A stretch of DNA of 64,000 bases, from NCBI GenBank assembly GCA_903813345.2, contig CAIIXF020000011.1, forward strand, positions 2,502,571 to 2,566,570. The letters are read 5' to 3'. The position numbers were made by a program, and so were the translations under genes. Under the pieces are notes generated by a model. The model had not been told where the DNA came from. It did no database searches and saw only the letters and a list, made by a program, of their open reading frames with translations. Shown here piece by piece: positions 26,470-61,261 of the stretch; position 1 is the stretch's first letter; every line of letters starts with the position of its first letter. This stretch comes from Owenia fusiformis. Lineage: Eukaryota > Annelida > Polychaeta > Sabellida > Oweniidae.

Positions 26470-26588
26470 GTCATTGTCACCATCGACGGACACGCAGAAA
26501 ACTGCACTGAAAATGAAGATAATCATCAGTCTCACAATCGCAGTTGTGCTTATTAGCACCTGTCAAGGATATAATGGATTATCAGAAA
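26470..26588 (+). CDS. Gene A exon 2: last 43 nt of 5' UTR plus signal-peptide coding (from 26513)
   Basis: The exon follows a TATCTGCAG acceptor. The 43-nt leader (GTCATTGTCACCATCGACGG..) has the same length as in copy B. Coding starts at 26513 and ends after the first base of codon 26, before GTGAGT. In the signal peptide the A/B differences are three synonymous codons and two replacements, unlike the rest of the protein. Confidence 0.8.
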
Positions 26589-29500
26589 GTGAGTAATACA
26601 GTTTTGTTCTATGAAAGAAAAATGGTTTGTTCATTACCCGGAGCAAAGTATATATGTACCCATCTAAACGCTTTGTATTTCACATGGTCAATATCCAGTA
26701 TGGATCACTTCTGTCGCTGTCGCTTTTGAAAAAGTAGTAGATAAAAAATTAGATAAAATGTTTAAAATCGGGATAATGACTAATGAAAATCAAGTTTTAT
26801 CAGTGCAATCACCAGTTGAAATGTATACTTTATTTTGTTTATCTTGTGTGTATATAATTTCATAATAAAAAGTATGACGAAATTATTTGGTTCACTACAA
26901 TCATTTAACTTTTTGTGACGCTGTGAAAAAAATTATGGTCCCTCAGGGATTATGGTCCCCTTTTTATATGCCCTTACTGGCCCTGACTGTCCATAAGACA
27001 ATAAGGGAAAGAGATCACCATATAAATCAATGGAAAGTAGGACCATATATTCATAGGACCTTCTAGCCTTTTGCAACAGTGGTCTTGAGTTTGAAATCTG
27101 TTGAAAAGTGTTTTCTAGAAATTTCGAGTTCCAAGGGGCATAAAGATATATAACGTGGTATGTGTTGTTAGGTAACCGAACTCTCAGCTTTTTTTATAAT
27201 TGATCCGAAGATGTAAGATGGTCATGTATTTCACTGTAATTGAATGGGGCCGTTTAAGTTATCCATAATGGTAAAAAAACTGAACGCAAAATACATTGAA
27301 ACTTCGAACGAGGCACGTCTCGGTATACGTTCGTCCTTGGCTAAATCATGAACAGTTACGAGTGCAAAAACATTATAGAATATTGTTTTTGAATACTCTG
27401 CCCTGCTTAATTAGAATATGCAAGTGAACTTGTTTGTGAGTAAATGTTAAATATTTTGATACTTTGTTTCTTTGACTTCCCTCTCTGCTGGTTGTACAAA
27501 ATTACTATTAAACATAATTAATTAAGATCCGTTTGCCATATATCTATTTATACATCACAATGTATAATCACAATTACATTCTGAATGTTACATAGTAATA
27601 ATGTTCCTAGTAATAATGATAGTATAAAAAAAGTGACAGCCATTGAGGGCGATAGCGTAAATTATTTACCCGTGGGAATATCCTCTAAAATTTGCTATTC
27701 CCGAAGCCGCGGGCAGGGAAATAGTAAATCTATTTCGGGACACGTGACTAGGTGTTGAACAATCAGGATTAGTGTAACATATTGGGTATATAATAATAAT
27801 TATTAATTAATGCTTTGACAAATTGACAAGTTTCAACATAACCGGATTTTTCAAATCTGATGTCATGTAGGCCCGACCAACTTACACTCTCCTTTATGAG
27901 TTTGCCATCGTTAGCTTCCAATTGGAAGTTTTGTGCAAAAGAAAACTTTATTTTTTAATTTTTATTTAGATAACCTAAAAGTGTATTTTGACTTAAAATA
28001 TTTCCTATACTTCCAGATACTCAATTTTTTCTCAATTAGAATAGATTCAAAACTGCTTACTGCTGAATCTCTAAAAATTGTAATTCTTACTGTTTAATGT
28101 AAACCAGTATTAATTCATGATCTTTCATCCACACAAATTAAAAAAATCTGAAATAAAAATGCTAAATATTAAAATTAGAAATAAACCCATTGAGAGAATT
28201 TCAAAGACTACTTTCCTTGAAGTTATTATCGATGATAAACTTAAATGGAATGAGCATATTGCTCATGTATCTACCAACATTTCACAAGTAGTAGGAATTC
28301 TTTAAAAGGTCAAAAATAAGATAAATCACACTGCAATCATGTCTATTTATTACTCTCTTATATATAGCCATATAAATTATTGTATTCTTATCTGGGGCAC
28401 AGCAACTAAAGCTCTATTGTTTCAAATTCTGAAAGTACAAAAAAGATTCTTAAGACTAATTACAAACAGTGTTAGAACAGACGAATCCTCTTTACAATTT
28501 TAGAAAATAAAGATATTCATAAGCTAAATGTTGGTATTTTTGTATTTAATTGTCTAAAACGACCTAAAGAATTTCCTCAAACTTTATTCCATGACTACTT
28601 CATAGCAAATGCCCAAACTCATGGTCAAGAGACACGTTATAGATTCAATCTTAGAGCTAATCAAATTTAAATCTACATTTGAACAAAGGAGCATTAAATA
28701 CATAGGACAAACAACATGGAATGAATTACCTGAAACTTTTAAACATCTGAATTCTAGAAATAAATTTAAGTCAGATTTGAAAAAGTATTATCTGTACAAG
28801 TATTAAATTGATCTGTATAACATTTAGCTATATGTGCTTATATATATGTATATTTCTCTTCTTTTACTTTTCTCCTAACTTTCTTTCTTTAAAAACAGTT
28901 TTAAATCTTGTCATCTTGATTAATACAATTGCGTAATATAATCATATGTAACTATATACACCCGCATGGGTGTCAGTTGCCTGTACAATGAACATTGATA
29001 TAATTGATGAATAAATAACTCTGCAAACTGTAATGCGAAATGATGGGTTCGGGGAAAATTGGGTTTTAAGATAAATATTCAAAAGAAGATTTACAGAGCT
29101 CCAAAGTCGCTGAATAGGAAAGATAACTTGAAAAATAATTTTTACTTTGGAGATCTATAACTTTGTTGGGCTGGATGAAACATCAATTTTTGTAAAAAAA
29201 AGTTAACAAATTCACTTGTTTGCTTAGACTGTATCTTTCCAAGAACTCGGACTGATGAGTATTCATTCATATGACTTACAGCAAGCCTACTAGTTACTAT
29301 TGGTTTACATTGGAATGTGTATTTCACAAAATTATCTGATTTGTCACCAATTTACGATCTAAGGTAATTCTTAAAAAATGAAAAAACGAAGATATTGGCA
29401 ATTATGTAAATTAATAGTTTATTTCTTTACACGTTATCAAAGAGGTTATATTCTATAATTTGTTATTTTTTTAAAGCGATCCAGTGCTATGATGACATAC

Positions 29501-32500
29501 AGACTGCAAACAATCTGCAGGAACAAATTCGGGAGATATATCGCAACAAAGAGTCGTTTTGCGAAGGTGTCGGGGTGAGTAATGCCGTGGTCACATTTCC
29601 CCCAATTTTCACGACAGTGCCCGGCCGATTTAGTATTCTTTTCAAAATTGGATGCAATATTAAACAAAACACTCAATCGGCCGGGCGCTGGTCGACGAAT
29701 CGAGCAAATGTGACCCAGGCATAACATTTACCTTTTGACGTATTAGTCTATAGTATGAAATCTCTAGGACTTCTTATAAAGGGTTTGGTAGCACACGATA
29801 GCGAAGCTATATTTCACATAATATTAACATGCCTAAATATGTTCCCTAATATTTTTTATTATAACCGCTTAATATACTTCCGGTTTGGTGCTGAACTATG
29901 CTTGTCATAAGCAGAGGTAAAAAAATAACCAAAAAATCACATTTTCACAATTTGGAGAACACATTGCAACAGAAAATATTAAAAAATGATTTTAAATATA
30001 TAATTTAAGTTTCTTAGCTATACGATTGAGGTTATTTTTCTTATCAGTACCAAAAAAATATGTCACCAGTGTATGAATATCTAAGCACAAGTGCCAAAGG
30101 GAAAAGACCAAAAGTTGAAATGAAAAAGCAAACTCTAAGTGTATACCAGTCAAGAAAACAAACCCCATATACCCCAAAACCATGACCTAACCCGAAAAGA
30201 AACAATGTATAATACCCCCTATCCCCCACCATCCAAGAACCGATATCACAATCCAAAACCAGAACACCAAGGTACATTCCATTCATACTGAAGCCATTAC
30301 AATACATGTTGAAGAAAAAATTAGAAATTGATAGCCAATACTCACAATCTCACAAATAGTTGGAGACACAAGTACTAATAAAAGACAGAGCATTCAGTCT
30401 CAAATGACGTGAAGTAGATAAAATCCAGTCTCCAAGTCCATAGGAATTTCAAAGGGTCGACATCAATTCACACCATTTTTATATTAGAATAACAAATGCT
30501 TAAATCATCATCCCGGAATAGCCTTGCAATGGTAAATATAGATACCTTTGTCACAAATGGCGAACATAACCGTCACTTCAATTAGATTTCCATAAACTCT
30601 ATGTGTAATAGAGCTAGACTAAATTCCCTTGGAACAATAGTCAATCAAAGTGTCTTAATACTCATTGTATAGTTATTAATGTTCTTCCGTCGATATTAAG
30701 TCTTTAATCTAACCGATCAAAATGAGATACGGGACAACGGACCCTGTGATTATCATATGCCGTTGTCTTTCTAAATTTCTCAAATTCAGATTCCGTTGTC
30801 ATTGACGATATCGAAGACGCTATATTGTGGCGATTCACGACCCAATTTGATCGAAAATGGGATTTCATATGGTACACTATCATAAGAGCTTAATGCATGC
30901 GCCAAAAATGCGACGATTAAATCCAATGAAATGAGGACCAGGTGATTAAACAGTTAAAGTGACGGTTATGTCTGCCATTTGTGACCACGGTATCTGACTT
31001 TTCCGTACATAGGCTATTCCGGTGTGATTATGCTAGTTATTCACAAATTGAGTCTCAATACGATTTGAGATATGGCCTTTTATTCTGCGGTGAACGTTAT
31101 CAATAAAGGGGGCCTATTGCTCTTCCTTGACTAACTGCGACTACAGTTGAAATTCTATTTCTCGTAGTAATATATTGCTTTATAGTTGCTTATAAAACAA
31201 AAATCAAGATTAGGACAAATTCATGAATATTTTCTATAATGCCATGCATGCATTTGGCGATTGAAGATAATTTAGAAAATGTAACTAATGATGATAATTG
31301 ATAAATAAATAAAAATAAATAAAAAAAACTGTGTAACATTTAATTAGATATAAATCTTACCTATTTGTTATAACATATTATGATTTATAAAACAAGAACA
31401 ATGGTTTGTGATTGACCCCTTTAGATAATATGGATAATTTATGGTAATAAAATGTTTAAACGGCAAGAAAACTAATATGTTCGCAATCATAAATTACCTA
31501 AATTTTTCATACAATTTTATTAAATATGCTTGGCTCATATTTGAAAAATCAAACAAAATCTGAAAAGCACACTTGTGTAAGCACACTTATTAAACACCGA
31601 CATTTATAGTAAACCTTTAGTAAATTAAAAACATTGATATATGTATTTGTTTTTCGTATGCTTAGCATAATAATACGGATAAGTGTGTTATAAAATGTAT
31701 AAAACTTCAAATCAAAATATTTACCTTTTTGACCCCTTGTGATGAAAGACATTTTTCGACCCGAAAGTTTTTCACCAAATTGTATTTTATATTAATCAAA
31801 ATATATTCACCTCCTTAATTATTGCTTCAAATGTTGCTGCGATATATGTGTGCTACGGATCCTCCATATTCGGAAGCTACTCCATGGAGTACATGTATAT
31901 CCAGTATTAGTATGTACCAGGACACAGTAAATGGGTCAAATCACAGATGTATTCAATATTTTTTTGTATCTCTTAAACAGCTCAAAGAGACGTTTCAAAT
32001 GAGCATTGGCTTCATTGCTGTATTTTATTTTACGGTTATAAAAGCACATTTTCTTCTTCATCTTTGGCATATTTCACGGGTTTTGTCGCAAAATTTTAAT
32101 ATTTGTGATATAAGACCGGTTCTCAAATGTTGAGGCTCATATAACTTTCAATTCTCCACAATGCACAATAGTTCATGCATGAAAATTGTTTTTGGTAAAC
32201 TATAGAAGCTGGAAGAGTGTTACAAAAAGCAGATCAATTGCTCCGGCACTTAATCTGAACTCGGACCTTGGATAATCTTTAGAAGAACTCGTTTTATTGA
32301 TAGCTATATACAGGGTTTTACAGAAGAATTTGGACCAAGTCTTAGATCATAATGGCGTAGAATAATGGGAATAGCGTCATAAATCCCAGGACAGTGAATC
32401 TCAGATCGAACAACGTCATTTAATGGTTGAAAATCAAACTATTCGCCAATGTATAACCTAAAAGACCAAAAGATTATGCCGCAAATTTTGAAACAAAGTT

Positions 32501-35437
32501 TGAAGCCGTTGAAGGCTAAACATTTGGGTTTGCTTAGATCATTTAAGAGAAATGATAAAAAAATTGTTTTTTCAAAGTTTATAATGGCGGCCAATGGGGG
32601 ATTTTAGCAAAATATCCCGAAAATTAAACCATTAACGAGGCGTACAGCCTTTTTTATTTTGTTCGTGAAGCCACTCAGTAAAATTACGATTTCTCTGCAA
32701 CCTGATGTCCAATAAAGATCATTCAAGTAATTATGTGTTTGTGACACGTTTGGGCGTCCGGGAATAACAACGTCCATCCAAAGTTTGCATGGGAAATACA
32801 CGTGATTCATGACTGAAATCCTAGGACAATCCTATCAAAAAATAAAGAGAAGGAGTTCAACTTTCATTTGAATTACGAAAAAACGATGTAGGTCAAAATA
32901 GTTCCGACGTGAGCATGTTTTCTACGCGTATGCCTGTCATCTCAGAATTGAGAAAATGTTAGCAAGCGCGAGTTACAATAAATGGACGCTGATATTTCAA
33001 AAAGTAACCTGACTCCCTATAATTTGATGGAGATCAATCGAACCCAATTATGAACAGGCACATTATGATATATAACACTGTAGGGCGTAAGCGTTTTATA
33101 GTTGATCACGAATGCCATGGATTACGGTACTAACACCACAATGGCATTGCCGTTTTTGGGCTTATTACTTGAAAGCATCAATGCAGTTTTATTATCATAT
33201 ATTAATAGTTATATGACGAATCATCGCAATATGATACAGGGTGTTAAAAAAACGCAACCCAAAGAAATCGCTATATCTTGAAAAATACTAGTTCAATTAT
33301 GTTCATATTTTCAGGAAATAAAGAAGAGACTGTGCATGTATAGCTCCTGTAAATCGTTAGTTGTAAAACATGATACCTTGGACACCTGCTCAAAAGACAG
33401 TTGTACTAGGAAAATACGAAAAACGCAGTTAGGGGTGACTGCAACGTCAAAAAAATTAAATAACTTTCTAACCAAAGTGTTTTGGCTCTTCAAATTTGGC
33501 ACAAATCATCTTCATTCACTGTATGGTAAATCTGTAGAGTGAAATCAAAATCACTTCAGGAACTTTACAGTTATGGTTGAAATGCTTTCAAATCGCAGTC
33601 AAACGCCCTGGTTTAGGGAGACTTAAGAAGGCATTTTGACCATGTCTGTAAAGTCCCTGGAGTGATTTTGATGAAACTCCACAAATACACAACACATTGA
33701 ATGAGAATAATTTGTGCCAAATCTGAAGTGCCAAAACACCATGGTTAGAAAGTTATTTGGTTTTATTGCTGTGGCAGTCACCTTTGACTGCGTTTTCATA
33801 TTTTCCTAGAACAACTGTCATTTGAGCAGGTGTCCAAGGCATCATGTTTTACAACTTACTGACAATAGGAGCTATACATACACAGTCTCTTCTTTCTTTT
33901 CCTGAAAAATGAACATTATTGAATTAGTATTTTCCAAGATATAGTGATTTTCCATTCGCATTTTTCATATTTTGCTTGCACAACTGTCTTTTGAGCAAGT
34001 GTCCAAGACATCATGTTTTACAACTAACTAACAACAGGGGCTATACATACACAGTCTCTTCTTTCTTTCCTGAAAATATGAACGTAATTGAATGAGTATT
34101 TTCCAAGATATAGCAATTTCCTTGGGTTGTGTTTTTTTTGAACACCCTGTACAACGCTTGTTATACCCTAGTTGGGGTTAATTTTGTATATAAATGTAAA
34201 ATAATTTGGGGAATCCACTTAGAGTTTGAAGATTTCTTCAAATGTATCGTCGTTACGGATATGACGGCGTATAATATTGGATTTCCACAATGGCGGGCTA
34301 TTATGTCATCAATATACGTTGGATAATATGGCGACATTTTTTGTAACATTTGTTTTACAGACGATGTGACAACGGCCAAAACGGCCGATGTAGATTTCAA
34401 ATTTAAAAATAAATTGTCCTACATTATTGCTATTTCTAAGTAAAAAATCAAAAATTATCTGATCGCACCGCGTGATACACCATATTAATACATTTTCATT
34501 TGCGTAGCGTTTTGATTATCACCATAAATATCTTGAAAACAAACAAATTATACATATGAGCATAGTATAATGTAAGCTAAGAAGTGATTGGTTCACAATA
34601 ATGGTGTAAAGTTGAAATCGAGCGCGTATCAATACGCCTTTTTATCTGATTGGTCGGTAAAGTGATCTTTGACCTTGCAAACACCGCCTATAATATTAGT
34701 TCTGAACGCCTGAAATTTTAGGCTTTGACAACGCACATAATTTACATTTTAACGAGCGTAATTAACACGAGCATTAAGAAAGACAGAGTGGAAGACGCGT
34801 AATTCACATACGGAGGAGGGTCCTTAACTTCTAAACACGACTAGATTCAATGTGTAGATTCGCCAACCTTATCAAAACAGTAGGCTTGGACGTAAAATAA
34901 AATGATTAAAATAATTAAAATCTGGGAAATGATGTCCTTATTTGGTCCAGTTTACACATTAACCCATGAGATAAAATTAAGATTGAAAATGCAATGACTT
35001 TCCTAAAAATAATGTTAACATCTTGTAGTGTAAGGTTAAGGAAGTTGTTAGATCGATCTTTTTGTTCGGATATGTATGCTTTTCTTATGACTTGTATACA
35101 CTAAGCGTTTTCTTCTTCTTGTTAGGTCCCATTACAGCTTTTGGTCCTTCCCATTTGCACTTTGTGCTTAGTATTGCCAAGGCTGCTTTTCTCGATACAT
35201 TTAAGTTTACTGGAGCGACAAATCAACGGAATCTTTAATTGAAAAAGACGAGGCCTTAAGCAATGATAAGTACTAATCACACATATTTTGACCCAAATTC
35301 TGTGAATTTGTACGGTTTTGTATTTATAGGGCTATAATGACTGCAAAGTTGTAAAAGAGCTTCGTGAACTACATAACGAGTACAAGGAAGTACTAGAGAA
35401 TGTGCAGAAACTTCTAGTGGCATCCATGATTGGGTAA
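26513..35437 (+). CDS. Gene A: small secreted three-cysteine protein, 93 aa, unknown family
   Basis: The three coding exons are joined 26513-26588, 29477-29574 and 35330-35437. Intron phases are 1 and 0, with GT..AG at every border. Residues 1-19 (MKIIISLTIAVVLISTCQG) form a signal peptide with likely cleavage after G19, so the product is probably secreted. The mature 74 residues are charged and helix-prone, with cysteines at 29, 54 and 63 (odd number, so one may pair between chains). The C-terminal part, from about residue 64, has a heptad-like L/V pattern (KELREL, EVLENVQKLL). The start is the first ATG after the 5' exon and begins the signal peptide. Paralogue B has identical cysteine spacing but a mostly different mature sequence. 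I do not recognise the family. A gamete-recognition, pheromone, immune or venom-type role is possible, but none is shown. Confidence 0.8.
28060..28806 (+). pseudogene. LINE reverse-transcriptase C-terminal fragment in intron of gene A
   Basis: The protein fragments read FLEVIIDDKLKWNEHIAHVS, then after a stop KVKNKINHTAIMSIYYSLIY, INYCILIWGTATKALLFQIL, and later YIGQTTWNELPETFKHLNSR with FKSDLKKYYL at the end. This is the usual order of the region after the YADD domain in CR1/L2-like LINEs (FLGV.ID..L.W..HI; LIYP.LNYCI..WG; WN.LP). Several stops and frame changes are present. It has the same orientation as the host gene. Confidence 0.75.
29477..29574 (+). CDS. Gene A exon 3, mature region with cysteines 1 and 2
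   Basis: It has acceptor TTTTTAAAG and donor GTGAGT, 98 nt, phase 1 in and phase 0 out. It encodes IQCYDD at its start and NKESFCEGVG at its end. The equivalent B exon has the same 98-nt length. By hand count 36 of 98 bases differ, and of 23 changed full codons only two are synonymous. The flanking intron bases are far more alike. Confidence 0.8.
29584..29722. mobile_element. Short MITE adjacent to the exon 3 donor of gene A
   Basis: The inverted ends are GTGGTCACATTT and AAATGTGACCCAGGC, with a further inverted CGGCCG pair inside. Copy B lacks it: B runs GTGAGTAACAGATACCTTTT directly, whereas A has the insertion between GTGAGTAAT and CATTTACCTTTT. It begins within about 10 bases of the splice site but leaves GTGAGT intact. 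Confidence 0.7.
29725..30500 (+). other. Gene A, intron 2 (first part)
   Basis: The first part (to about 29985) aligns with B at 53725-54060, for example GGTTGGTAGCACACG, TAGCGAAGC and GAACTATGCTTG. The segment 30050-30300 has an open frame on the minus strand, but it has no recognisable protein and is absent from B. Confidence 0.45.
30506..31030. mobile_element. Foldback MITE, CGGAATAGCC ends
   Basis: The left arm starts CCCGGAATAGCC and the right arm ends GGCTATTCCGGTG. Both carry TCACAAATGGC and ATAACCGTCACTT in inverted orientation. It is about 525 bp and non-coding. A partial arm occurs at 955-1210. Confidence 0.65.
31035..33236 (+). other. Gene A, intron 2 (middle part)
   Basis: No coding sequence was recognised. 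31370-31560 matches B near 54130-54310 (GAAAATCAAAC..AATCTGAAAAGCA). 33100-33236 matches B near 59930-60020 (GCATTGCCGTTTTT, ATATGACGAAT). Between these, A and B share little, so large insertions or losses separate them. Confidence 0.45.
33237..34149. mobile_element. Mariner-type foldback element, copy 2 (913 bp)
   Basis: It is nearly identical in structure to 16915-17829, with the same CAGGGTGTTAAAAAA and GAACACCCTG ends, TA on each side (33235-33236 and 34150-34151) and long inverted arms. Gene B intron 2 lacks it at the equivalent site (ATTATACGCC near 60015), so it entered A after the gene duplication. Confidence 0.85.
34152..35329 (+). other. Gene A, intron 2 (last part)
   Basis: This part is collinear with 60015-61153 of gene B. 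Shared strings include AAATGTATCGTCGTTACG, GTAAGCTAAG.AGTGATTGG, GACGCGTAATTC and TTGGTCCAGTTTACACATT. It ends TTTGTATTTATAG in both copies. Long conserved non-coding sequence is consistent with recent duplication. Confidence 0.6.
35330..35437 (+). CDS. Gene A exon 4, C-terminal region with cysteine 3 and stop
   Basis: It has acceptor TATTTATAG and 36 codons including TAA. It encodes GYNDCKVVKELRELHNEYK and then a leucine/valine-rich helix ending ASMIG. Against B, 32 of 108 bases differ by hand count. Twenty-two codons differ and only one of those is synonymous, while the 126 bases just after the stop differ at 12. The first codons of the helix, RELHN, are unchanged. Confidence 0.8.
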   Translation, partial: GYNDCKVVKELRELHNEYKEVLENVQKLLVASMIG

Positions 35438-35651
35438 ACTCCCGAAGCACAAAAACCCACCACCCCTACCCAGCAACCTCTAGACGAAAAGCGAGTCGTT
35501 AGCCAAATCAACGAATTAAAGACCCAACTTAATCTTCTGGACGATCAAGGAACTGACGTGTAAAATGAAACATTGAAGAAAGAAAGAACATGAATCAAAA
35601 TAACATATAACATAATAAACAAAAATAGAATTTTTGGATATAAAAAATAAA
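35438..35651 (+). other. Gene A 3' UTR with open reading after the stop, and polyadenylation signal
   Basis: After the TAA the same frame stays open for 41 codons, PEAQKPTTPTQQPLDEKR then VVSQINELKTQLNLLDDQG, to a second TAA at 35561-35563. The same arrangement exists in B with no length change. AATAAA lies at 35646-35651. Whether the extension is translated cannot be told from sequence. Confidence 0.55.
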
Positions 35652-35804
35652 ACAAAGGAAGAATAAACTGATAAGTGGAACCCTCAACCATATTGTGTAA
35701 AGGTATTTTCGTAACACTAAAGGATAATGGGGAGGGGGGGCAGATGTTGGTTCCCGGATCCGACCCAGACACCCTGTATTGAGTGTGGACAACTTCTCAA
35801 AGAA

Positions 35805-39180: not shown

Positions 39181-39199
39181 GTCCGAGAGGCAATACACT

Positions 39200-47756: not shown

Positions 47757-47857
47757 CTTCTGAAATCATTAGTAGCTGGTTTTTGTTATTGTATAATGTA
47801 CAGTCCATTACACGTGATTTTTGCTAACTAATTTATAAAACCATATGTTTAAAACCA

Positions 47858-48683: not shown

Positions 48684-48689
48684 ATTCAC

Positions 48690-49376: not shown

Positions 49377-51747
49377 GTAAGTACTTTCCTGCTAAAACGT
49401 TAAATTAAAGTTTCATAATTAATTGTTTAACATTTAGAATTAAGAAATATATATAAAATATAAACTTTTTTATAGCTATAGGTATTTTATTCCTCTCGAC
49501 TTCTGAAAGGTTGATATATGGTGAAAGGGTTGGGTTGGTTTCAAAATCAGACTTTATGATGAAAATATCATTTTGGAATAACTTATTTCGGAACAAGTTT
49601 GTGTTATGTGTACCCTACGCGTAGCGTCTAGTTATGAACTACTTCTTAAGGAAGCGAAGACGAATGGATTCAAAGGGTTGGTTATGTGATCTCCATTTTC
49701 TGTATTAAATAATATGGCTTCTTCAGACGAATCCATTTGATCAGTCTATTTTGAGGATAGCTGGACCAGGTTAATTCAAGTTTATTGAAAACGTCTTCCT
49801 GACGCTACATAGATCGAAATTGTACTTTGCACACTCGACCCTTGCAAAAAGTTTCATTAAAATGTTTTCTTTAAGGGACTTCGCAGACAATATTTGATAA
49901 TGTGTGAAAATAATTTAAGCACAATCATGACGCATTGCAGCTAATTCGTTCCATTTGGGCATCATATTATCCCGGGCTAAATTCCTTATTATTCCTTGTA
50001 ATCTTCTTAAGGTAACTTATAACTAAATCAAAAAATCCAAGATGGCCGAAACCAGGAAGCACATGGCATTTGAGTATAATCTGACCATCAAAATTAACTG
50101 TCTTTTGGTTTGATTTTCTCTCAATTTTTTAGTTCCACTTATCATTTATATAACCAGGCTCACGGTGGTAACGCAAATAGAAAAAGTAAACATTTTGGAA
50201 TGGGAATTTGAGTCCTCTGAAAATGTGACAGAAAAATTGACAAAAAGAGTAGCACGGCAAAGGTCCCTGAACATTTTTTTTTCTAATTTCTCTGAAACAT
50301 CCCTTTAATATAGCCCAAAATGGAAGGAGCTTTAGAATTTTGAAATCTCTCATACAAATTAAAAAAAATAGAAAAAACAATTCGAGAAGTGTACTTTTTT
50401 CCTTATTTTGATCCCAATTTTTTTATCGGGTAATTTTTCAAATTTCCGTTGCTCCTTCGTTTTTGATATATGTTTGAAGTATATTTTCTGAAATGTTCAA
50501 ATATTTTGAATCAGCGGTTTTTCACTGGCTACTACTAGAAAAAAATCTTCTCAAATTCTTTAAACGGCACTTTTTTCTCAAACTAAAGTTTTTTGTTGTT
50601 CTGTGATGTCTTTGTAATGATTACAGTGTACAAGCTTATGTGAAATAATAAAAACGACTTCTCAGGAAGAGTTTGAAAATTTCAAGATTGTGAAATTTTC
50701 AATTTTTTCTGAAAATCGATTAAGTTAACAGTCACCTTAATAATACACACAGAGAAAGCTAATGGCTCATTTTTAAATGTTAACGCTTCGTTGCAAGGAA
50801 AAACTGACTAAACCGGTTAACGATGAAGTAAGTAGGTACCCTGTGGTGAATCATAAGGAAACAATGTCATGGTATGTATTTGCTCGATGGGAAAATATAA
50901 TTTTATTAATTTTGTTGTATCCATGTCGATTGTCGAGTTTATTGCAAAGAACAGGATGTACCAAATAATAAAACCAAGTGAGAGGGTAATGTCTCATAAG
51001 GAATAGACTAAATGCAAAATATAGTACTAAAGTGTAAGGTTTCGGATATCTTCAGCCGTTTTCAGTTGCAGTTCAGAAATCGTAACATGCTTCGATCCCA
51101 TGTTTAACAACAATTTTAGACTAGCGACATCTATCTTTTAAACATATAGATGAATCAAATTTTACTTCCGTTAAAAATGCGCACGCAACCAACAGTACAA
51201 GAAAACAACTGAACAATTAAGTGATCGCACTAAGAGATCGCACCAAGAGATCATGAGTTCGTGAAGGATGGATAACTTTATGGAATTAAATATTATAACA
51301 TCTTGCAGTGGTTCTGCCGAATACGTATATTAATATATGAACTAAGATGTGACACAGTCGCATATTTAAAAAAAATACTGCACACTACAATATTATATCC
51401 GGTAAGACTTGCTACTTTTATTAGCGCATCGGTACGTTAATGTGCGTGATTAATCAGGAGGATTTTACATCGATTTTATAATGTCAATCAATGAATCCGA
51501 AAAAACGTGTATATGAGTTATAAATATTGTATGTTTTATCAGGCAAACCTTACATTGCTAGCGCCTAATGACTCAAAATACCCATGTCTGTTTAGCTTCT
51601 TGTCGATCTATTCATGTGTTGACTATCTATTCACGTGTTGACTTCATCAGGGCGAAAAGTGACATCCTTCTACTTTGCCTTTTAAACATTTTAACAAGTA
51701 AGTATATCATAAGTATTTTTTATTTTTTATATATTTTTTTACCGCAG
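49377..51747 (+). other. Gene B, intron 1
   Basis: It starts GTAAGT and ends ACCGCAG. It aligns in blocks with intron 1 of A (see 23403-26469). 50150-50540 has CTCTGAAAATGTGACAGAAAAA, as in the GGTCAGAATGACCC MITE family. The TTAA MITE of A is absent. Confidence 0.6.
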
Positions 51748-51899
51748 GTCATTGTCATTATCGACGGAATCGCAGAAAACAGAACATAAGATGAAGATAA
51801 TTATCAGTCTGACAATCGCAGTTCTGGCTATAAGCACCTGTCAAGGACTTGATGAACTCGGAAGACAAAGAGGTCAAGCATATAATGCATTATTTGGAT
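51748..51899 (+). CDS. Gene B exon 2: 43-nt leader plus signal peptide and 11-residue insert (coding from 51791)
   Basis: It has acceptor TTTACCGCAG and donor GTGAGT after the first base of a codon. Leader length equals that of A. It is 33 nt longer than the A coding exon, an in-frame difference at the mature N-terminus. Confidence 0.8.
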
Positions 51900-54800
51900 G
51901 TGAGTAATACAGTTTTGTTCTCTGTTTGAACAAGGGTTTGTTTATTACCCGGGCCAAAGTGTATATGTACCGAACGAAACGACTTTAGTCTACATATGAG
52001 GAAGTGAAAGGATTGAATCAAGGGCTTATTTAATTCCCGGACTTTGTATTTGTACCGAACGAAACGACACATATGGGGCTTTGCATTCCTCATGGCTATC
52101 ATACAGTATGGAATCACTCCACAGATGTCGTTTTTGAAATGGTAGTAGACAAAAATCGATGTTTAAAATCAGGATAGTGGTTGATGGAAATCAAGTTTTA
52201 TCAGTGTGTTCACCAGTCTGTTCATCTCGTGTGTATATAATTTCATAAAAAGTATGACCAAATTATTGGTTCACTACAGTTATTTGACTTTTTGTGACGG
52301 TGGTCTTGAGTTTGAAATCTGTTGAAAAGTGTTGAAAATATGAATAGATGGCGGAAAAAGCGGTCAGATCTTTTGATTTTCGAGGCTCTTTTTCTCAGAC
52401 ATTTTGAGTTCCAAGGGGGGCATATTGAGCTATAACGTGGTATATGTGGAAACGTCACTGAAATCTCAGTTTTTTCATAATTGATCCGAAGATGTTAATG
52501 TTTTTCAGTTGAATTGTATTGGGCCATTTAAGTTATCCCTAAACGGTAAAAAACTAAACGCAATACGTTCGCCCTTGACTAAATCATGAACAGTTACAAG
52601 TGCAAAAACGCTAAAGAATGTTGTTTTTGAACACTACCCTGCTTAGAATACGCTAGTGAACGTTTTTGTAAGTAAATGAAAAATAGTTTAATCCTTTTTT
52701 GACTTCCCTGCCTGCTGATTGCATAAAATTACTATTTAACATAATTAATTAAGATTCGTCTGCAGTATGGAAAGTGATTTAGACGGTTGTATCTTTCACC
52801 ATGAGCACATTCTGGGCATAAATACAGTGTATTTTATTAAAACAATGTTTTCTTTCAAGTGAAGTAACCATGATGATAAAAATAGCAGTCGAACAATTCG
52901 AAAAATTATGAATAGGGCCCCCGTGTCCACATTTTTTCAAACTATTGAACCTATTTCCTCAAAAGAGGATCTCCCTTTTCTGATTTTTATTACATGAAAG
53001 AATATTCAACAAGCCGTCTAAAACATCATAAAAAATATAATGGTATTGAAAGTCTAGTTTTGAAGATATCAATTTTCAGATGACCAAAATGATGCTGAAA
53101 ACAATGGATAGCACGAGTTTTCCCTATGGGAAAATAATATGGGATATGTGGCTTTTAATTTAAACGCATTTCGATACGCATTCCATTTTTCAGAAATTGA
53201 TCATGTAGTGTAGAAGAAACTATTGATATGTTAAAATTCAGAAAAGCAAGATCCTCTTTTTAGAAAATGTGCCTAACATTTTTAAAAAAAGTGCCAGGGT
53301 GAGGCCCTAATCCATAATTTTTATATAATGGGGACTTCACTTGAAAGAAAACATATTATTTTAATGAAAACCATTGTTTTTATAGCCAGAGAGTACTCAT
53401 GGTGAAAGATATGACTGTCTAAAATCACTTGCCATACTGCACATGGACCTTTATTTATATATCAAAATGCATGATCACAATTACATTACGTAATGTTACA
53501 TAAATTACGTCAATTAATAGTTTATCTCGAAAATTCGTTTGTTCTTTTCATAAATTACTAGTACTTTTAAAACACGTTATACAAGAGGTTATTTTCTATA
53601 ATTTGTTATTTTTGCTAAAGCGACCGTGTGCAGTGATGCAAGGGAGGCTACAGCTATGTATAAGCAAGAACTTCGCAGGATTCATGACAACAAAGAGGAG
53701 TTTTGCGAACATGTCGAGGTGAGTAACAGATACCTTTTGACGTATTTGTCTATGGTATAAAATCTTTTAGTCTAGGACGTCTAATAAAGGGGTTGGTAGC
53801 ACACGGTAGCGAAGCGATATTTGATATAATATTAAGATGCCTACATACTGCATGTTCCCTTATCATTATTATTATAACTGCTTAAAAGACTTCCGGCTTG
53901 ATGCTGAACTATGCTTGATGCTGGACGATGCTGATGCCTGTCATAAGCAGAGGTCAAAAAATTCCCAAGAACTAGAATCCCATTTTTCACATTTTGGAGA
54001 ACACAATGCAACAGAAATTAGTACATAATGATTTGAAATATATTATTTAAGTTTCTTTTTCAGAACCGAAAATGTAATTATTTAAGCAGTGTAATGCAAC
54101 AAATGAATCAGTTTTACGTAGAATAACAAATTCTTGAATTAACCCCTTGATTGATTGACCCTTTGCGACTATATGGATAATTTCTGCTAATAAAATGTTT
54201 TAAATGGTAAGAAAACCAATGTGTTTGCAATCATAAATTACCTAAATGTTCCATACAATTTTGTTGAATCGGCTTGGCTCATATTTGAAAATCAAACGAA
54301 ATCTGAAAAGCATACTTGTGAAATCACACTTGTATCTTAGAAGGGTATCAATAAAAAATACTAGATGAATTATCATATTTTGCCATGCACTGCGCCTATT
54401 CATCTTCAGTTCAGTTGTAAATTTTCTCTTGAAAAAAATGAATGTTCCAAAGAACGAGTGTCTTTAAGATCCTATATTAGCCCCCAAGATAGACGAAATT
54501 GTTCAGGATATCAAAGAAGGGACTTTGTTAGATAACCAGAAACAAAAAGTCATTTACCAGGTCGTTCAATAAGTTCATGCAAAAACATTCTCATTTTTTT
54601 ATTTTTCAATGTTTTTCCTTGAAACTTTCACAAATCATAGAAAAAATACATACTCATTGAAAAACAAAAAATAAATTACTTTGTTCTGATTGGTCAAAAG
54701 CTATGGTTGCTATGGTATCCCATGTTTTGGTCACGCGGGGCAATTTATGACGTGAAAAAAAGTTAATTCTAAGTGAATTCTTGTGATTCATTAGTTGCAC

Positions 54801-57800
54801 ATTAGGTACACTCTATTGAATTGTCTTTTCAAATTGAAGTTCCTATCAATCATGTCACTCCATTAAATCCATAGTTCCTTGCGCTTCACCCATTCTTCGT
54901 ATTTAGCCCTAAAGCCACAGGGGAATTAAGTGCGCTACCCTATAAAGCGAGCTCTACAAAAGAAATGGTCTGAAATTACGCCTTTCTCCAAGCTATTTCA
55001 CCAAGACAATGCCCAATGTCATCAAGCAAATATGGTTCAGGATACCATCCGAGATACCCTACAGGTGGAGATTTTAGACCAGGCTGCATACTACCCTGAT
55101 GAGGCTGTATTGGACTTTGGGGTGCTCAATAGGATGAAAGATGAACTGAGAGGTGTTCGTTATGCAAGCATGACAGAGCTCACTGCAGCTGTGAAGAGTG
55201 CAATGCGCACTAAATTCCCTTGTGGCTTTAAGGCTCAATATGAAGGATTGGTGAAGCGCCAGGAACTATGCATCCAGTATAAAGGAGGATATTTTGAGCA
55301 TTTAATGAAGTGTCATAATTGTTAGGAACTTCAATTTAAAAATACAATGTTTTATAGAGTGTACCTAATGTGCAACTAATAAATCACAAGAATTCAATTA
55401 AAGTTGAACTTTTTTTACGTCATAAATTGCCCCGCGTGACCAAACACGGGTTACCATGGCAACCATAACTTTTGACCAATCAGAACAAAGTAATTTATTT
55501 TTTGTTTTTCAATGAGTATGTATTTTTTCTATGATTTGTGAAAGTTTCAACGAAAAACATTAAAAAATAAAAAAATTAGAATGTTTTTGCATGAACTTAT
55601 TGAACGACCTGGTATATGACCTTTTGAAGGAAAAATCACTATTTTAACATCATTATTGTCACTGTTTCTATTTATTATTAAAACAATCATTATTTACAGT
55701 CAATCTAGATCCTTTTCAATTGATCCTTTTGGCATTATCTTACATAATAGAGACAAAGCATAATGGGCAACATCTGAAAACACATACAAGTCAAAAATAC
55801 AAAAATACTGAATAAACTAATTGAGATCAACTGTCTACAAAAATATGTCAAAAAAAAATATTGAGTTTTTTAATTTTTTAATTTAATTTGGTTTGGTTTT
55901 GTTTACCAAAAATTTAAAAAAACAACATTTCGTGTTCATGTCTTGCACTGCAGTTCACATTACTGGGTTTTTACTCCTGACAATCTTTGGTTGAGCCATG
56001 TACATGTTTCACGTATCCACTAGATATATTTTGCTGATGACAAACACCTTTCCATACATGATTGTAACACATGATCAAGACCACTGTTTGGCATATCCTG
56101 CAAGGCCAACTGAACTGAGCAGTGCACATGTTTGACTATTTATGCGCTGCTTCAATTCACCAGATAGGTGAAGATCAGATGGTGCTCAATCAGATAAGTA
56201 GAGAGCACCAAGGAGAGCACCAAAAAGAGCCTCCATAGAAAGCTACTCTAGTGTGTCAATGACCGTTTTAATTTGGATTAACGATTATCCAAGTGGATAA
56301 TTGCCTGCGTTAAATGCCTTCCTGGCAATACCCGGTTGTTGCTACATGATAATTATGTCAAACAGTGGTTTTGATCGTGTGTTCAAATTGTCTTTTGAAA
56401 GGTGCCAATTAATTCTCCAGTATGGAACAGCGTGGGGAGAAGTGAAACCACCATGTTCACTGCTCCTCTGGGAATAAGAGGAATAAAATAACAATACTAC
56501 TGTAGTTGTGTGAACAGCAGTGTTCAAAATGGCCATTGACTTCAATGCTAGGAACTTGTAATGCACTTAAAGGTTGTATATGACTATCAAAGTGTTTTTG
56601 ACACATTTTCAAAGCCTTAATTCAGCATGTTGCCCTGTATGTATAATAGTTTCCAATACGTATTCACTTAGCATTGATATTCATCTTTCATTCCATATGA
56701 CGAAAATGTAAAGGATAGGTATCGATATGGAGAACTGAATTCAACAATGTTTTTCTCTTAAACCAATCACTGAAAACATTCTGTAAAAAAACATGGTATT
56801 TTATGTAATGTTGACTGATTGACAACAATTTAATGCGAAAATTATTTAGAGAAATTTTATATAACTGTTTTTGTTAACATTTTTTGTTTGTTTAGTGCAA
56901 TTGTTTTTGCTCCTTTCTACCAATTCTTGAGAATGAAATGAAATATCTTTCCGAACCTTATTGGAACAAAATAGCATATACGACATGTTTTTAGACCTCT
57001 CAATATTAAAGTTATGCAAAGGAATTTTTGGTTGATTTTAAAAAGTATTCAAAAAATTAAAACAAAATCCCCCCAAAATAGATAAAAATCAAGAAAAACC
57101 TTTTATTTCATTAACAAGATACTTTTTTAAAATCAACCAAAAGGACGAGTGTCTTTAAGACCCTATATTAGCCCCCAAGATATTTAGAAGAAATTGTACA
57201 GGATATCAAAGAAGGGACTTTGTTTGATAACCGGATCCAAAAATTAGGTCATTCTGACCTTTATATTTCAAAATATAGGTCATTTTATTTTTGTATAAAA
57301 TGACCTTTTGAAGGAAAAAATCACTCTCTTCACATTATTATTCTCGCTGCTTATATTTATTATCAAAATAATTATTATTTACAGTCATTCAAGACTTTTT
57401 AATTGATCCTATTGATATTATCTTACATAATAGTGACAAGGCATAATGGGCAACATTTGAAAACACATAAAATATAACAAGTCAAAAATGCAAAATAATA
57501 TTGAATAGTATCTTCTGTATACACTTTATTGAGATCAACTGGCTACAAAAATGTGTCAGAAAAGAATATTTAGATTTTTAATTTACATCACAATGAGAAA
57601 GAACAAGGGGCAACATTAAAATACACGTGAAGCAATTAACAAGTCTAAAATGCATATCAATCAATTAAATATTGATCTGATTGAGATCAATTGTTCATAT
57701 TCAGTATATTTTAAAGTGGCAGTAAATCATTGAATATATTATTTTGCATCACAGTGAGGAAGCACAAAGGGCAAAATTTGAAAAGACATGAAATATAACA

Positions 57801-60800
57801 ATTTCTAAAAGGTTACGCTGGACTTTACATAACTGTTGTACTTCTGTAGATGAGCACATTCATGTGTTTGTTCATTATAATAAGAGACTCTATGAGCTAT
57901 CATCATCTTCTTCAGATGACATCTGTTCATCTCTTTTTGCTTTTATACCCCTTGTGCCTACAGCCCTACTCCCAACTGGAACAACATGAACAACATCAAT
58001 ACTATTACATACATCTGGATCTGGGTTGTACTCCACCCATGTATAGTTGGATTTAGAGGACACAAACCTATTACTGGGTTTTTACAAATAAGGCCATATA
58101 TATGTTTCCCATCTACTTGAAGGTGGTCATTTGTGGAACGTTTAGATTGATTGGCTTGATATTCACTAAATGTGAGTTGACATACATCGTCTTCAGTCAA
58201 AATGGGGAAGTCCTCAAAAGAGTCCACTATCACAGGCTGGTATCGAAAGATTTGTTCGCTGTGACGGAGCATGCTATTTTTCATAAAAACACTAAGAATG
58301 CTTCACGATTTATTTTTTAACTCATATGTTTCGTTATATCAAAGATAATTACTTATTCCATGCAATGGATATATCATTTGCGTGTAACCTTCACTTCTGC
58401 TTGAAGTTCAATAACGCTAGGAGTAAAATCTATTGAAAACGTGAAAGTTACCCGCAGAAGTGAAAGTTACCCGCAAATGATATATCCATTGCATGGAGTA
58501 AGTAATTTTGTATGGTATAACGAAACATATGAGTTAAAAAATAAATCGTGAAGTATTCTTAATGTTTTTATGAAAAATAGCGTGCTCCGTCACAGCGGAC
58601 AAATATTTCGATACCAGCCTGTGACTATGACTTAGATGTAACCCTTTGTCTCCATATAGGGGGTACTGAGTGATTGCAGTTCATTCATACAATTCCCTTT
58701 GCTCTGGGAATTTTATGAGCAAATGTCATTTTCCCGTGAACTGATGTTGACTAATAGTATGTTTCTTCTGCACAATAAAGTTGAGCTGGATTTCTAAATA
58801 TGAACATTGGTTTGATCAGTCAGTGAACTATGATAATATAAAGAAATTATTCATTGACAAAAATGACGCCTATCACATGAAGACTAAATGATTGTACAAC
58901 AACCATCTCAATTTTGCATGTACATTTATATGAATGTATAGAAAGGAATTACATGTTATTATGTTGTTTAGAGCCATGGTAAAATATATGCTTCTCTTGA
59001 GGTCATGCTTCAGTGCAAGCATAAATATTTGTTCATGAAATGATAATATTAAATAAGAAAATATGCTTGAATATATAGAACACAATTGTCGCAATCATTC
59101 TAAGGATTTTCAAAATGGCTGACATCATTTTATTCATGCTGAAAATTGCATGAAAGTTCCATTTTTGCATGACGCCTGGTCCTTACCTAGATTTTCATAT
59201 ATCTCAAGAAGTACCTTAGAAGTACACTAATCCATCAATGCATATAGCTTTCTAGGTAAGAACCAGGCGTTATATGAACAAAGGAAGAGTTTATCATGAC
59301 CTTCCTCTCTCTAAAAATAAGTAGGTCAACACAATTGCAAACATAACTAATCCCCCCTCAATGACTATTGTAAAATGACTATTTATGTGTACAAAATATT
59401 AATCCAATGAGTGTATAGAGTGACACAATCAAACAATGGGACATCTGCCAAGTTGGGTTTATATATTTTGAAACGTTTTCTGAGACTGATAAAAAATTCA
59501 CATTTTCACAGGAAGTGATACATACCTCCCAAATCAACCAAAATATACTTATATCAGTAATCCTGAATGTTCTTTATTGCTATTTCTTTCTATCTTCAAT
59601 TTGGTCCTACATATCAAGGATATTAACGACATTGCATTTTTCAAAAAATGTTAAGTGACCCCAGGGGTGTCTATAGCCATTCGTTCTTTCCTTTGTACAA
59701 TTACAATATTGAGAGACCTAAACATGTTGTGTTTGATGCCTGGTTTGATGCAAATGTTTGATGCCTGGTTTAAGAGAAACGGGTGTTCAAAAAGTTCGCC
59801 ATATCGATACCCATTCTTTATAAAATATTGACGGAGTGGGAGCTGTTAGAATGACCCCTAGTTTTAGCAATTTTCAGAACGTTTCGTCCAGTGTATTTAA
59901 TGAGGGCCTACTTTCAATCAAATACAATAGCATTGCCGTTTTTAGGCCTATTACATGTACTTGAAGGCATAATGCATTTAATCATATATTAAGAATAATA
60001 TGACGAATTGATTGCATTATACGCCTTTTCCCCTGGTTATGGTTCATTTGTTTACAAACATAAAATGATTTCAGAGGAATCCACTAAGACTTGGGAGATT
60101 TCTCCAAATGTATCGTCGTTACGAAAATGACTTCATATTACATTGGATTTCCACAAAAACGGGCTGGGAGTATTTTGTCATCAATACACTTTCTCTTTCG
60201 TTATTGGAGCACTTTGACATTCAATTGAAAATTGAAAGTGCGTTTATTAGATTTAGGTAATTGGAATTGTGAAAATGTGCATGAAGATTTCAAATTTAAA
60301 AAATAAATTGTGCTTTATTGCTATTTCTAAGTTAAAAATTTCCGCGTGATTTACTATATCAATAACATTTTTATTAGCTTTCTGATGATCACCATAAATT
60401 ATCTTGAAACAAACAAAATGTATGAGCATCGCATAATGTAAGCTAAGCAGTGATTGGTTCACAATAACGGTGTAAAGTTGAAATCGGATTGGTCAGTAAA
60501 ATGATAATTTTACCTTGCAAACACCGCTCCTAATATTACTTCTGAACGCATATAATTTACGCATTCACGAGCGTAATTCATACCGGCGTTAAGAAAAACA
60601 TAATGGAAGACGCGTAATTCTCATACGAAGGAGGGTCTTACTTCTAAACACGCCTAGATTCAATGTGTAAATTCGCCAACCTAATTAAAACACTTAGTAG
60701 GTTAGGACGTCCAATAGAAATGATCAAAATTAATTAAAATCAGGGAAAGGGTGTCCTCATTTGGTCCAGTTTACACATTAACCCATGCCACAATGAAATA

Positions 60801-61261
60801 AAATTAAAATGGGAATTTCAATGATTTTCCTAAAAATAATGTAAACATCTTGGAGTGTATGGTAAAATAAGTTGTAAGATCGATCTTTTTGTTCGGATAT
60901 GCAGGGTTTGCTTTTCTTATGACTGGTATACACTAAGAGTTTTCTTATTCGTGTTAGGTCCCATAACAGTTTTTGGTCCTTTCCATTTGCACTTTGTGCT
61001 GCCAAGGCTGCTTTTCTAGATACATTTAAATTTATTGGAGAGACAAATCAACGGAATCTTTCATTTAAAAGACGAGGCCTTAATCAGTGATAACTTCTAA
61101 TCACACACACTTTTACCCAAATTCTGTGATTCTGTACGGTTTTGTATTTATAGGGCCGTGATGAATGCAGTGTTGGAGATGATATTCGTGAACTACATAA
61201 CGATTTCAAGGAACTACTCGGAAAAATCAAGGCACTTCTAGAACTAAACAACCTTGGGTAA
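51791..61261 (+). CDS. Gene B: paralogue of gene A, secreted three-cysteine protein, 104 aa
   Basis: The coding exons are joined 51791-51899, 53621-53718 and 61154-61261. Phases and borders are as in A. The signal peptide MKIIISLTIAVLAISTCQG differs from A at two of 19 residues. An 11-residue segment, LDELGRQRGQA, follows it directly and is absent from A. Cysteines at 40, 65 and 74 keep the C-x24-C-x8-C spacing. The mature region keeps NKE.FC and RELHN but differs at about two thirds of the aligned positions. The C-terminus, FKELLGKIKALLELNNLG, keeps the helical L pattern. The frame is intact and all splice sites are canonical, so it looks functional. The family is unknown to me. Confidence 0.8.
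52755..53455. mobile_element. Foldback MITE in gene B, intron between exons 2 and 3
   Basis: The left arm starts GCAGTATGGAAAGTGATTTA and the right arm ends with the inverted counterpart, TGCCATACTGCACATGGAC. CTTTCACCATGAG..ACA and GAAGTGAAG-like blocks are mirrored. It is about 700 bp and absent from A at the same place. A single arm occurs at 35805-36060. Confidence 0.7.
53621..53718 (+). CDS. Gene B exon 3, mature region with cysteines 1 and 2
   Basis: It has acceptor TTTGCTAAAG, donor GTGAGT and 98 nt. It encodes TVCSDAREATAMYKQELRR and then NKEEFCEHVE. The downstream intron continues CAGATACCTTTTGACGTATT without the MITE seen in A. Confidence 0.8.
54557..55612 (+). mobile_element. Internally deleted mariner-type transposon (1056 bp)
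   Basis: The terminal inverted repeats start CCAGGTCGTTCAATAAGTTC at the left and end with the complement, GAACTTATTGAACGACCTGG, at the right. They extend about 280 bp. TA flanks both sides (54555-54556 and 55613-55614). The interior keeps only the C-terminal half of a transposase. TIR identity is high, suggesting recent movement, presumably with enzyme supplied in trans. Confidence 0.85.
54930..55325 (+). pseudogene. C-terminal half of a mariner-family transposase
   Basis: The 131 open codons include FHQDNAQCHQANMV (second catalytic Asp block), AAYYPDEAVLDFGVLNRMKD (third Asp block, here VLDFG) and LRGVRYASM. It ends YEGLVKRQELCIQYKGGYFE. This is the usual mariner C-terminal order (QDNA..H; YPD.A..DF..F..MK..LRG.R). 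The N-terminal DNA-binding half and the first catalytic Asp are missing, so the product is not an active enzyme. The open frame has no stops, consistent with a recent deletion. Confidence 0.8.
57890..58284 (-). pseudogene. Unrecognised protein-coding fragment with acidic C-terminus, one frame break
   Basis: On the minus strand, from 58284: FEDFPILTEDDVCQLTFSEY, then HLQVDGKHIYGLICKNPVIG. After a one-base shift near 58065 it continues FVSSKSNYTWVEYNPDPDVC, VVHVVPVGSRAVGTRGIKAK and RDEQMSSEEDDDSS to a TAG at 57890. Residue use is clearly protein-like in both parts and the frame change is sharp. An in-frame TGA lies just upstream of 58284. I do not recognise the family. It could be the C-terminus of a host gene copied by retroposition or of a transposon protein. 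It lies antisense in gene B intron 2. Confidence 0.6.
58230..58624. repeat. Hairpin of two arms of about 170 bp
   Basis: 58230-58399 and 58454-58624 are inverted copies (CACAGGCTGGTATCGAAA facing TTTCGATACCAGCCTGTG; CATATGTTTCGTTATA; CAATGGATATATCATTTGC), separated by about 54 bp. The left arm contains the first part of the minus-strand fragment at 57890-58284, so coding sequence has been duplicated in inverted orientation. Confidence 0.8.
58625..61153 (+). other. Gene B, intron 2 (last part)
   Basis: 58625-59900 has no match in A and no recognised gene. 59930-61153 is collinear with gene A 33100-35329, minus the mariner of A. It ends TTTGTATTTATAG. Confidence 0.5.
61154..61261 (+). CDS. Gene B exon 4, C-terminal region with cysteine 3 and stop
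   Basis: 36 codons including TAA, the same length as in A. It encodes GRDECSVGDDIRELHNDFK and then KELLGKIKALLELNNLG. The intron side (CCCAAATTCTGTG..TACGGTTTTGTATTTATAG) is nearly identical to A, which makes the exon divergence stand out. Confidence 0.8.
   Translation, partial: GRDECSVGDDIRELHNDFKELLGKIKALLELNNLG

Follow-up and report, generated by a model that had tools for sequence, protein, structure and literature searches.

Two tandemly duplicated genes, A and B, in a 64,000-nucleotide stretch of Owenia fusiformis DNA (the window) encode small predicted-secreted proteins, and selection has most likely kept changing the mature parts of these proteins. For this pair, the mature replacement rate lies above both the intron rate and the synonymous rate, and the agreement of the intron clock with the synonymous clock makes the replacement excess unusually clean for a single genome.

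Gene structure of A and B

Self-comparison of the window identified A and B as tandem duplicates. The segment carrying A (20520..35726) matches that carrying B (43698..61549) in blocks with other sequence between them; these segments and all features below lie on the + strand and are numbered within the window. Exon 1 of A (26513..26588) encodes a predicted 19-codon signal peptide and the first 6 mature codons and ends in phase 1 at GTGAGT. Two hypervariable exons follow, of which exon 2 (29477..29574) carries the first and second mature cysteines and exon 3 (35330..35437, TAA stop included) the third. In B, exon 1 (51791..51899) comprises the signal peptide and a mature start that is 33 bases longer than that of A, followed by exon 2 (53621..53718) and exon 3 (61154..61261, TAA stop included). 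The products have 93 (A) and 104 (B) amino acids. A shared exon structure and a common C-x24-C-x8-C spacing had been proposed in the preliminary description, and both were recovered, with GT/AG intron borders and phases 1 and 0 in both genes. A deposited Owenia fusiformis protein, P0001, is identical to the product of A, agrees with its exon 1 and has exactly its three proposed exons. The record agrees with the three-exon model of A; for B no such record was found.

Exon and noncoding divergence

Between A and B, 36 of 98 bases differ in exon 2 and 32 of 107 in exon 3, close to the 36 of 98 and 32 of 108 counted by hand before. Across both exons 46 of the 68 codons are changed and three of these 46 are synonymous, in line with the earlier estimate of about 41 replacements among 45 changed codons. 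The signal peptide shows three synonymous and two replacement codon changes, as first described; beyond the signal peptide, exon 1 is comparable only partly, given the 33-base in-frame length difference. The alignable introns differ at 288 of 2042 sites (K2P distance 0.157), a figure that tends to be low since the intron blocks are those alignable by blastn and transposon-filled parts are excluded. The intron alignment 34166-34399 is also outside this set because it contains a poorly aligned insertion; adding it together with its flanking blocks brings noncoding divergence to 674/4623 (14.6%). Few changes had been noted just before the last exon (about 3 in 40 bases), and 9 differences were found in the last 80 intron bases there.

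When segments of high divergence were sought irrespective of exon borders, the best ones lay inside exon 2 (29480-29543, 31/64) and inside exon 3 (35395-35429, 18/35). As neither was matched in any of the permutations (0/60 each), the exon excess is not due to chance. Divergence at the level of the exons also occurs in 91 of 3422 noncoding windows of 98 sites, all of them in the poorly aligned intron stretch at about 34250-34450. With preset 80-base flanks the pooled introns differ at 69/304 sites, and the exon excess then has p = 0.006; the pooled flank figure arises because intron 2 of A opens with an insertion (29/65 there), and the other three preset flanks differ at 40/239.

Selection on the mature exons

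Diversifying selection, which the preliminary description had read from a conserved signal and a hypervariable mature region, was supported by codon analysis with the introns as neutral rate. In a fit to the 74 mature codons that can be compared between A and B, omega was 3.80 at a neutral distance of 0.155, which equals the intron K2P distance of 0.157, with a wide 95% interval of 0.06-0.36 for the exon neutral distance. The 95% interval of omega was 1.65-14.9 at kappa 1.67 and 1.35-12.2 at kappa 1. With the distance left free, omega = 1 was rejected (likelihood ratio statistic 8.80, p = 0.003), and for single exons p was 0.02 (exon 2) and 0.07 (exon 3). When the distance was fixed at the intron rate (0.16), omega was 3.68 and neutrality was rejected with p = 4.5e-15. 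A direct comparison with the introns gave the same picture: replacement sites of exons 2 and 3 are in excess (61/162, p = 1.7e-12), synonymous sites are not (8/42, p = 0.37). Given synonymous change at the intron rate, the replacement excess and the conserved signal peptide, neither hypermutation nor relaxed constraint nor the borrowing of old exons is likely.

Further copies of the family

At least six copies (A to F) were found, all within about 138 kb of C11. E is complete, with three exons, and like A and B has intact frames and splice sites. C and D have no recognisable exon 3, and F is a lone signal exon. DNA profiles and tblastn in C11:2382571-2676570, and protein profiles in C11 2412571-2676570, found neither an exon 3 for C or D nor exons 2 and 3 for F. 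The latter interval, which excludes the added 30 kb, has no runs of N, so an assembly gap is unlikely to be the cause of the missing exons. C further has a GC donor after exon 1, and exon 2 of D is two bases short.

Exon 2 lies above noncoding divergence (blocks aligned by blastn) in all six pairs among A-D (p 0.005 to 1.5e-8), and the A-B and C-D comparisons share no branch of the tree. Between C and D, exon 2 shows eight replacement and no synonymous changes. The signal peptide has dN < dS in 14 of the 15 pairs of the six copies, the exception being B-F, and the frame is kept in all six although exon 1 varies in length (76, 109, 109, 97, 106 and 76 bases). In single-omega fits with IQ-TREE, taken as likelihoods only, omega = 1 was not rejected for exon 2 of five copies (lnL -399.79 vs -400.73) or exon 3 of three copies (lnL -233.85 vs -233.97), the older copy E being included in these fits.

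Protein properties and family searches

The mature proteins of A and B are acidic (pI 4.7 and 5.0, net charge -5.2 and -6.0, respectively), and three mature cysteines are present in A, B and E. In exon 2 of five copies the residues C, I, N, K, F, C and V are invariant, and the always-hydrophobic positions have largely helical spacing. An AlphaFold model of P0001, with two B exon pieces as alignment, was all-helical but weak (pLDDT 63, pTM 0.41). With this weak model Foldseek returned no match at E <= 0.001; 50 of its 247 weaker matches were inspected and are mostly helical bundles by title.

A match to a slowly evolving known family would have spoken against the original interpretation, and the searches gave none. 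In Pfam, searched to E 10 for A and B and to E 0.1 for A, B and E, there was no significant match: A gave weak, unrelated ones below the cut-off (E 0.06-0.07), B and E gave none. Sequence searches of PDB with B alone (to E 10) and with an A+B+E profile (to E 1) gave nothing below E 0.18. In the protein database the Owenia record itself was the sole match (1/45 and 1/396 candidates), and the same searches did not find B or E among deposited proteins.

Comparison with known systems

Replacement excess between A and B, a conserved signal peptide and several clustered copies were found here, as in tandem, positively selected families of secreted proteins. Abalone lysin is a larger protein, with five helices. 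In abalone, replacement change above that of introns was reportedly described by Metz et al. 1998. Lysin and sp18 are secreted sperm proteins of the abalone acrosome; like A and B, they lie in a tandem array, with positive selection acting on paralogs (PMC9022041). They differ in that A, B and E gave no sequence match to them in Pfam or PDB. The small serum proteins of Protobothrops flavoviridis belong to the PSP94 family, have more cysteines than the Owenia family, bind the snake's own venom proteins and show no sequence match to the Owenia family. Like it, they form a tandem array with KA/KS > 1 in young paralogs (1.739, against a low intron rate, KN 0.0649) and lower values in older pairs (PMC6609765). 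The rodent pheromones Esp, Mup and Abp share with the Owenia family clustered genes for secreted proteins and introns as a yardstick, and for Esp extensive conversion and putative positive selection are described (PMC3477143). These are vertebrate families, again with no sequence match. Mollusc water-borne pheromones of the attractin type have six conserved cysteines in two helices, a pattern from which A, B and E depart with their three mature cysteines. The kind of evolution is already known, and the family appears to be new.

Proposed function and alternative explanations

The explanation we favour, with a confidence that stays somewhat short of even, is that positive selection has been reshaping a ligand, predicted to be helical and secreted, to fit a partner that itself changes, with gamete recognition as the most likely role. 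The products of A and B would be secreted after signal cleavage, and a two-helix body would be held by a small invariant set, the three cysteines and the helix-spaced hydrophobic series, with the other positions being those that change. A partner molecule would drive the change in the mature exons; that this partner sits on a gamete is the least certain step. Owenia spawns its oocytes, which activate in sea water and are then receptive to sperm (PMC8111721); sperm and egg proteins of this sort are known from such a setting. For the family as a whole we infer partner recognition, with gametes as first candidate; the pheromone, immune-effector and venom roles listed in the preliminary description are candidates as well. 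A bolder and rather doubtful extension is that the locus acts as a diversity engine, in which duplication and conversion homogenise the signal exon and introns of at least six copies and selection separates the mature exons; each worm would then carry different helical keys. This would be the first such recognition family, for gametes or as a spawning pheromone, known from the annelid lineage sister to all others.

Adaptive divergence after duplication but without a contest, with the copies tuned to different fixed targets such as a set of inhibitors or a water-borne pheromone blend, is an alternative to be taken seriously, if an improbable one. All copies are paralogs of one genome, by which a continuing contest and a burst after duplication are not separable, and it is among paralogs that the excess occurs. 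In comparisons with the older copy E, dN < dS (in exon 2 omega is 0.46-0.75 and dS 0.66-1.10; in exon 3 omega is 0.71-0.72), a pattern that bursts after each duplication would produce. However, omega declines with age in the same way when the free positions become saturated, and another burst would be required for exon 2 of C and D, a young pair.

Slightly less probable is a role as immune or antimicrobial effectors in a race with microbes or parasites, to which small predicted-secreted cysteine-containing proteins, a tandem cluster and positive selection fit equally well. Typical membrane-active antimicrobial peptides are cationic, unlike the acidic mature proteins of A and B, and a cationic antimicrobial peptide was therefore rejected; the lack of a significant Pfam match also speaks against an effector. 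Selection on an antimicrobial multigene family has been studied in Alvinella (PMC5431198). If the cluster is reproductive, it would offer genes that may underlie species-specific fertilisation or spawning in a tractable annelid model, and if immune, it would represent an uncharacterised effector family. Among the matches listed in a literature search, no account of a fast-evolving recognition family in Owenia was found. Published Owenia RNA-seq covers developmental stages and nine adult tissues (GSE184126, GSE202283, GSE192478, GSE210813 and GSE210814; PMC9977687).

Gene conversion or exon borrowing, by which introns were homogenised and exons are older or stem from a distant copy, is very unlikely. 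Its best argument is the block common to C and D, where 23 substitutions in 4363 columns (gap columns not counted) are concentrated in exon 2 (8) and the next ~450 bases (10), with 5 elsewhere. This block looks as after recent conversion, which complicates the C-D pattern. However, the changes in exon 2 of this pair are all replacements, so selection would have to bar conversion there, with eight changes being too few as proof. If the exons were far older than the introns, they would hold more synonymous change, and the equal A-B clocks (0.155 vs 0.157) count against borrowing, within an interval that still permits about a twofold difference.

An origin without any selection, through relaxed constraint, as pseudogenes, by local hypermutation or from two haplotypes that the assembly placed in tandem, is barely credible. 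In its favour, neither B nor E turned up among deposited proteins, and C and D, besides having no recognisable exon 3, show the unusual donor and the two-base loss. Against it, relaxed or dead genes should not surpass the intron rate, hypermutation would lift synonymous change too, A, B and E are intact in frames and splice sites, and noncoding divergence of 14%, together with different insertions, goes far beyond what we would expect for alleles.

Sequences flanking the exons

The 5' leader of exon 1 of A (26470..26512) follows an AG acceptor (TCTGCAG) and is open in frame, and P0001 starts with its translation, which is probably why the deposited protein is labelled partial. It differs from its counterpart in B (51748..51790) at 9/43 bases. 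The 126 bases 3' of the stop in A (35438..35563) and their equivalent in B (61262..61387) differ at 12 positions, the same count as before. In A they can be read in frame through 41 codons up to a TAA. That they form a C-terminus since lost, or one reached by read-through, was rejected, since 12-18% of shuffles were equally open (the tests in A and B not being independent of each other), 9 of the 10 changed codons are replacements, and E passes this point in another frame; the 126 bases were left as 3' untranslated sequence. Scans of the window with Rfam at gathering scores and for tRNAs were empty. Directly 3' of exon 2 of A, a short palindromic transposon-like insertion with approximate borders (29583..29721) was read from the sequence; such an insertion is absent 3' of exon 2 of B, and a similar one follows exon 2 in C and D.

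Structure and gene models of genes A and B

Genes A (window positions 26513-35437) and B (51791-61261) were delineated from the sequence and by self-comparison as three-exon genes on the plus strand encoding small predicted secreted proteins, the two being tandem copies. Self-comparison of the window further revealed a larger duplicated stretch around them (about 20.5-35.7 kb and 43.7-61.5 kb), which is interrupted by other sequence. In both genes the GT/AG borders, the phase 1 and phase 0 introns and the open frames are intact, and the products (93 aa for A, 104 aa for B) have a near-identical 19-residue signal peptide. The tandem arrangement with common exon structure, signal peptide and C-x24-C-x8-C spacing, as claimed in the preliminary description, was thus seen in both copies.

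A profile of A and B searched against about 5.8 billion proteins yielded a single match, the unnamed partial Owenia fusiformis protein P0001, which is identical to A apart from 14 additional N-terminal residues; these translate the 5' leader that follows the AG acceptor (26468-26469). Because of this identity, the deposited model agrees with the exons originally drawn for A; for B and the further copy E, no record was found among deposited proteins in profile searches. The Owenia genome paper gives RNA-seq support for 99.29% of its filtered transcripts and states that gene models overlapping repeats were taken out (PMC9977687); if P0001 stems from this annotation, the figure backs A generally, not as a test of A itself. 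The 5' leaders of exon 1 (A 26470-26512, B 51748-51790, plus strand; 9 of 43 bases differ) are open in frame and start exactly after an AG acceptor, which makes it likely that the gene has another exon upstream or that its start is longer. Past the TAA stop, 41 in-frame codons are open in both genes (A 35438-35563, B 61262-61387) and end at the same TAA; a frame equally open was obtained in 12-18% of shuffles. These 126 bases differ at 12 positions and diverge less than the introns, and GGGTAAAC at the stop is splice donor-like as well.

Replacement change in the mature region exceeds the intron rate

In the A-B comparison, 288 of 2042 aligned intron sites differ (K2P 0.157), as do 36 of 98 in exon 2 and 32 of 107 in exon 3. 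For the mature region, that is, the product after the signal peptide, the Nei-Gojobori method gave dN 0.50 and dS 0.22, while a codon model using the intron transition bias gave a replacement/synonymous rate ratio (omega) of 3.80 at a neutral distance of 0.155, which is the intron level. Omega = 1 was rejected with the distance left free (p = 0.003; exon 2 alone p = 0.02, exon 3 alone p = 0.07) and far more strongly with the distance fixed at that of the introns (p = 4.5e-15). Since the exons are short, the intervals are wide (omega 1.65-14.9, neutral distance 0.06-0.36). Synonymous change in exons 2 and 3 did not differ from the introns (p = 0.37), whereas replacement change did (p = 1.7e-12), and high-divergence segments sought without reference to exon borders fell within these two exons. 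The earlier claim that the mature exons diverge beyond the introns therefore held in the codon-based dN/dS check: the replacement rate exceeds the intron rate and the synonymous rate equals it.

The intron yardstick consists of blastn-alignable blocks and is biased toward conserved sequence; in addition, one part of an intron that aligns poorly is as divergent as the exons. With preset 80-base flanks, one of which opens with an insertion in A, pooled introns differed at 69 of 304 sites and the exon excess had p = 0.006. The synonymous rate within the exons avoids both problems and yields the same neutral distance.

Further copies in the cluster

A genome search detected two further places with related sequence, and a cluster was then seen in 200 kb fetched around the window (positions of C-F refer to contig CAIIXF020000011.1). 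Sequence searches placed exons 1 and 2 of copy C (2445237 and 2444388) and copy D (2481075 and 2473291) on the minus strand, and the three exons of copy E (2569327, 2570221 and 2571515; 142 aa) on the plus strand. Exon 3 of C and D was not found in searches of the surrounding stretch of the contig (2382571-2676570). The donor of C exon 1 is GC, and D exon 2 lacks two bases relative to the other copies, features by which both may be dead or incomplete. E exon 3 carries a 21-residue Tyr-rich insertion ahead of the third cysteine and a different end with a basic tail; a Tyr/Gly-rich stretch is present in D exon 1 as well. Copy F consists of a signal-peptide exon with an intact donor (2581792-2581867), and no recognisable exons 2-3 follow it up to 2676570; F may be a relic or serve another secreted gene. 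The length of exon 1 keeps the frame in all six copies, and their signal peptides are constrained: of the 15 pairs, 14 have a dN lower than dS.

Exon 2 excess, probable gene conversion and distant pairs

Exon 2 divergence exceeded noncoding divergence in all six pairs among A-D: AB (35/93 versus 184/1386), AC (21/93 versus 145/1246), AD (25/93 versus 174/1497), BC (28/93 versus 82/627), BD (34/93 versus 134/1033) and CD (8/93 versus 29/1661). These pairs have branches in common; as no other pair is nearly as close as C and D, the A-B and C-D paths are separate and mutually independent, whereas the other four pairs are not. A palindromic transposon-like insert directly 3' of A exon 2 (window 29583-29721) also follows exon 2 of C and D and is absent in B, a possible marker by which A, C and D may form a group.

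C and D have in common a 4.36-kb block of 99.4% identity (2444459-2440098 and 2473362-2469004), in which 23 substitutions over 4363 columns are concentrated in and beside exon 2: exon 2 has eight, every one a replacement, the ~450 bases after it have 10, and five lie elsewhere. Other blocks common to C and D are 72-99% identical. With substitutions piled at exon 2 and the rest nearly identical, the block is likely a recent gene-conversion tract, which complicates the C-D comparison. Against local flanks, the C-D exon 2 excess had p = 0.003.

Pairs with E also speak against positive selection: their dN was lower than dS, with omega at 0.46-0.75 for exon 2 and 0.71-0.72 for exon 3. At the exon 2 dS of these pairs (0.66-1.10), saturation cannot be distinguished from weaker selection. 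When a single omega was fitted over all copies, omega = 1 was not rejected for either exon.

Protein character and possible function

The A/B pattern of evolution resembles those described for lysin and sp18 of abalone (PMC9022041) and for the small serum proteins of a snake (PMC6609765). The family also evolves like rodent Mup/Esp genes, for which one study states that positive selection predicts coding variability above that of introns and reports extensive conversion in Esp genes (PMC3477143). No sequence match of the family, E included, to the abalone, snake or rodent systems was found in Pfam or PDB. Judging from rates and sequence, this appears to be an orphan family with an already known mode of evolution.

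In five copies, the exon 2 residues C, I, N, K, F, C and V are invariant, positions 3, 13, 17, 20, 27, 28 and 31 are always hydrophobic with largely helical spacing, and a structure model, itself weak, shows helices throughout. These features suggest that a helical core is conserved, with other positions shifting under selection, as in binders of a moving partner. Owenia has males and females at a 50:50 ratio, and its oocytes undergo activation in sea water and are then receptive to sperm (PMC8111721). Given separate sexes and oocytes that activate in sea water, gamete recognition would be the tentative first choice, by biology and analogy, not expression. Divergent pheromone or inhibitor sets, by the same kind of analogy, seem unlikely, and a role in immunity would be slightly less probable again. 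The acidic mature forms of both A and B speak against a cationic membrane-active peptide.

Repeats and transposon relics in the window

Intron 2 of B contains, at 54543-55626, 185-base inverted repeats (95%) around a 131-aa frame that had no Pfam match and that we take to be a mariner-type transposase relic. Two satellites are present, one CATTG-based (3708-4833) and one with a 347-348-base unit in both orientations, back to back (45128-47473).
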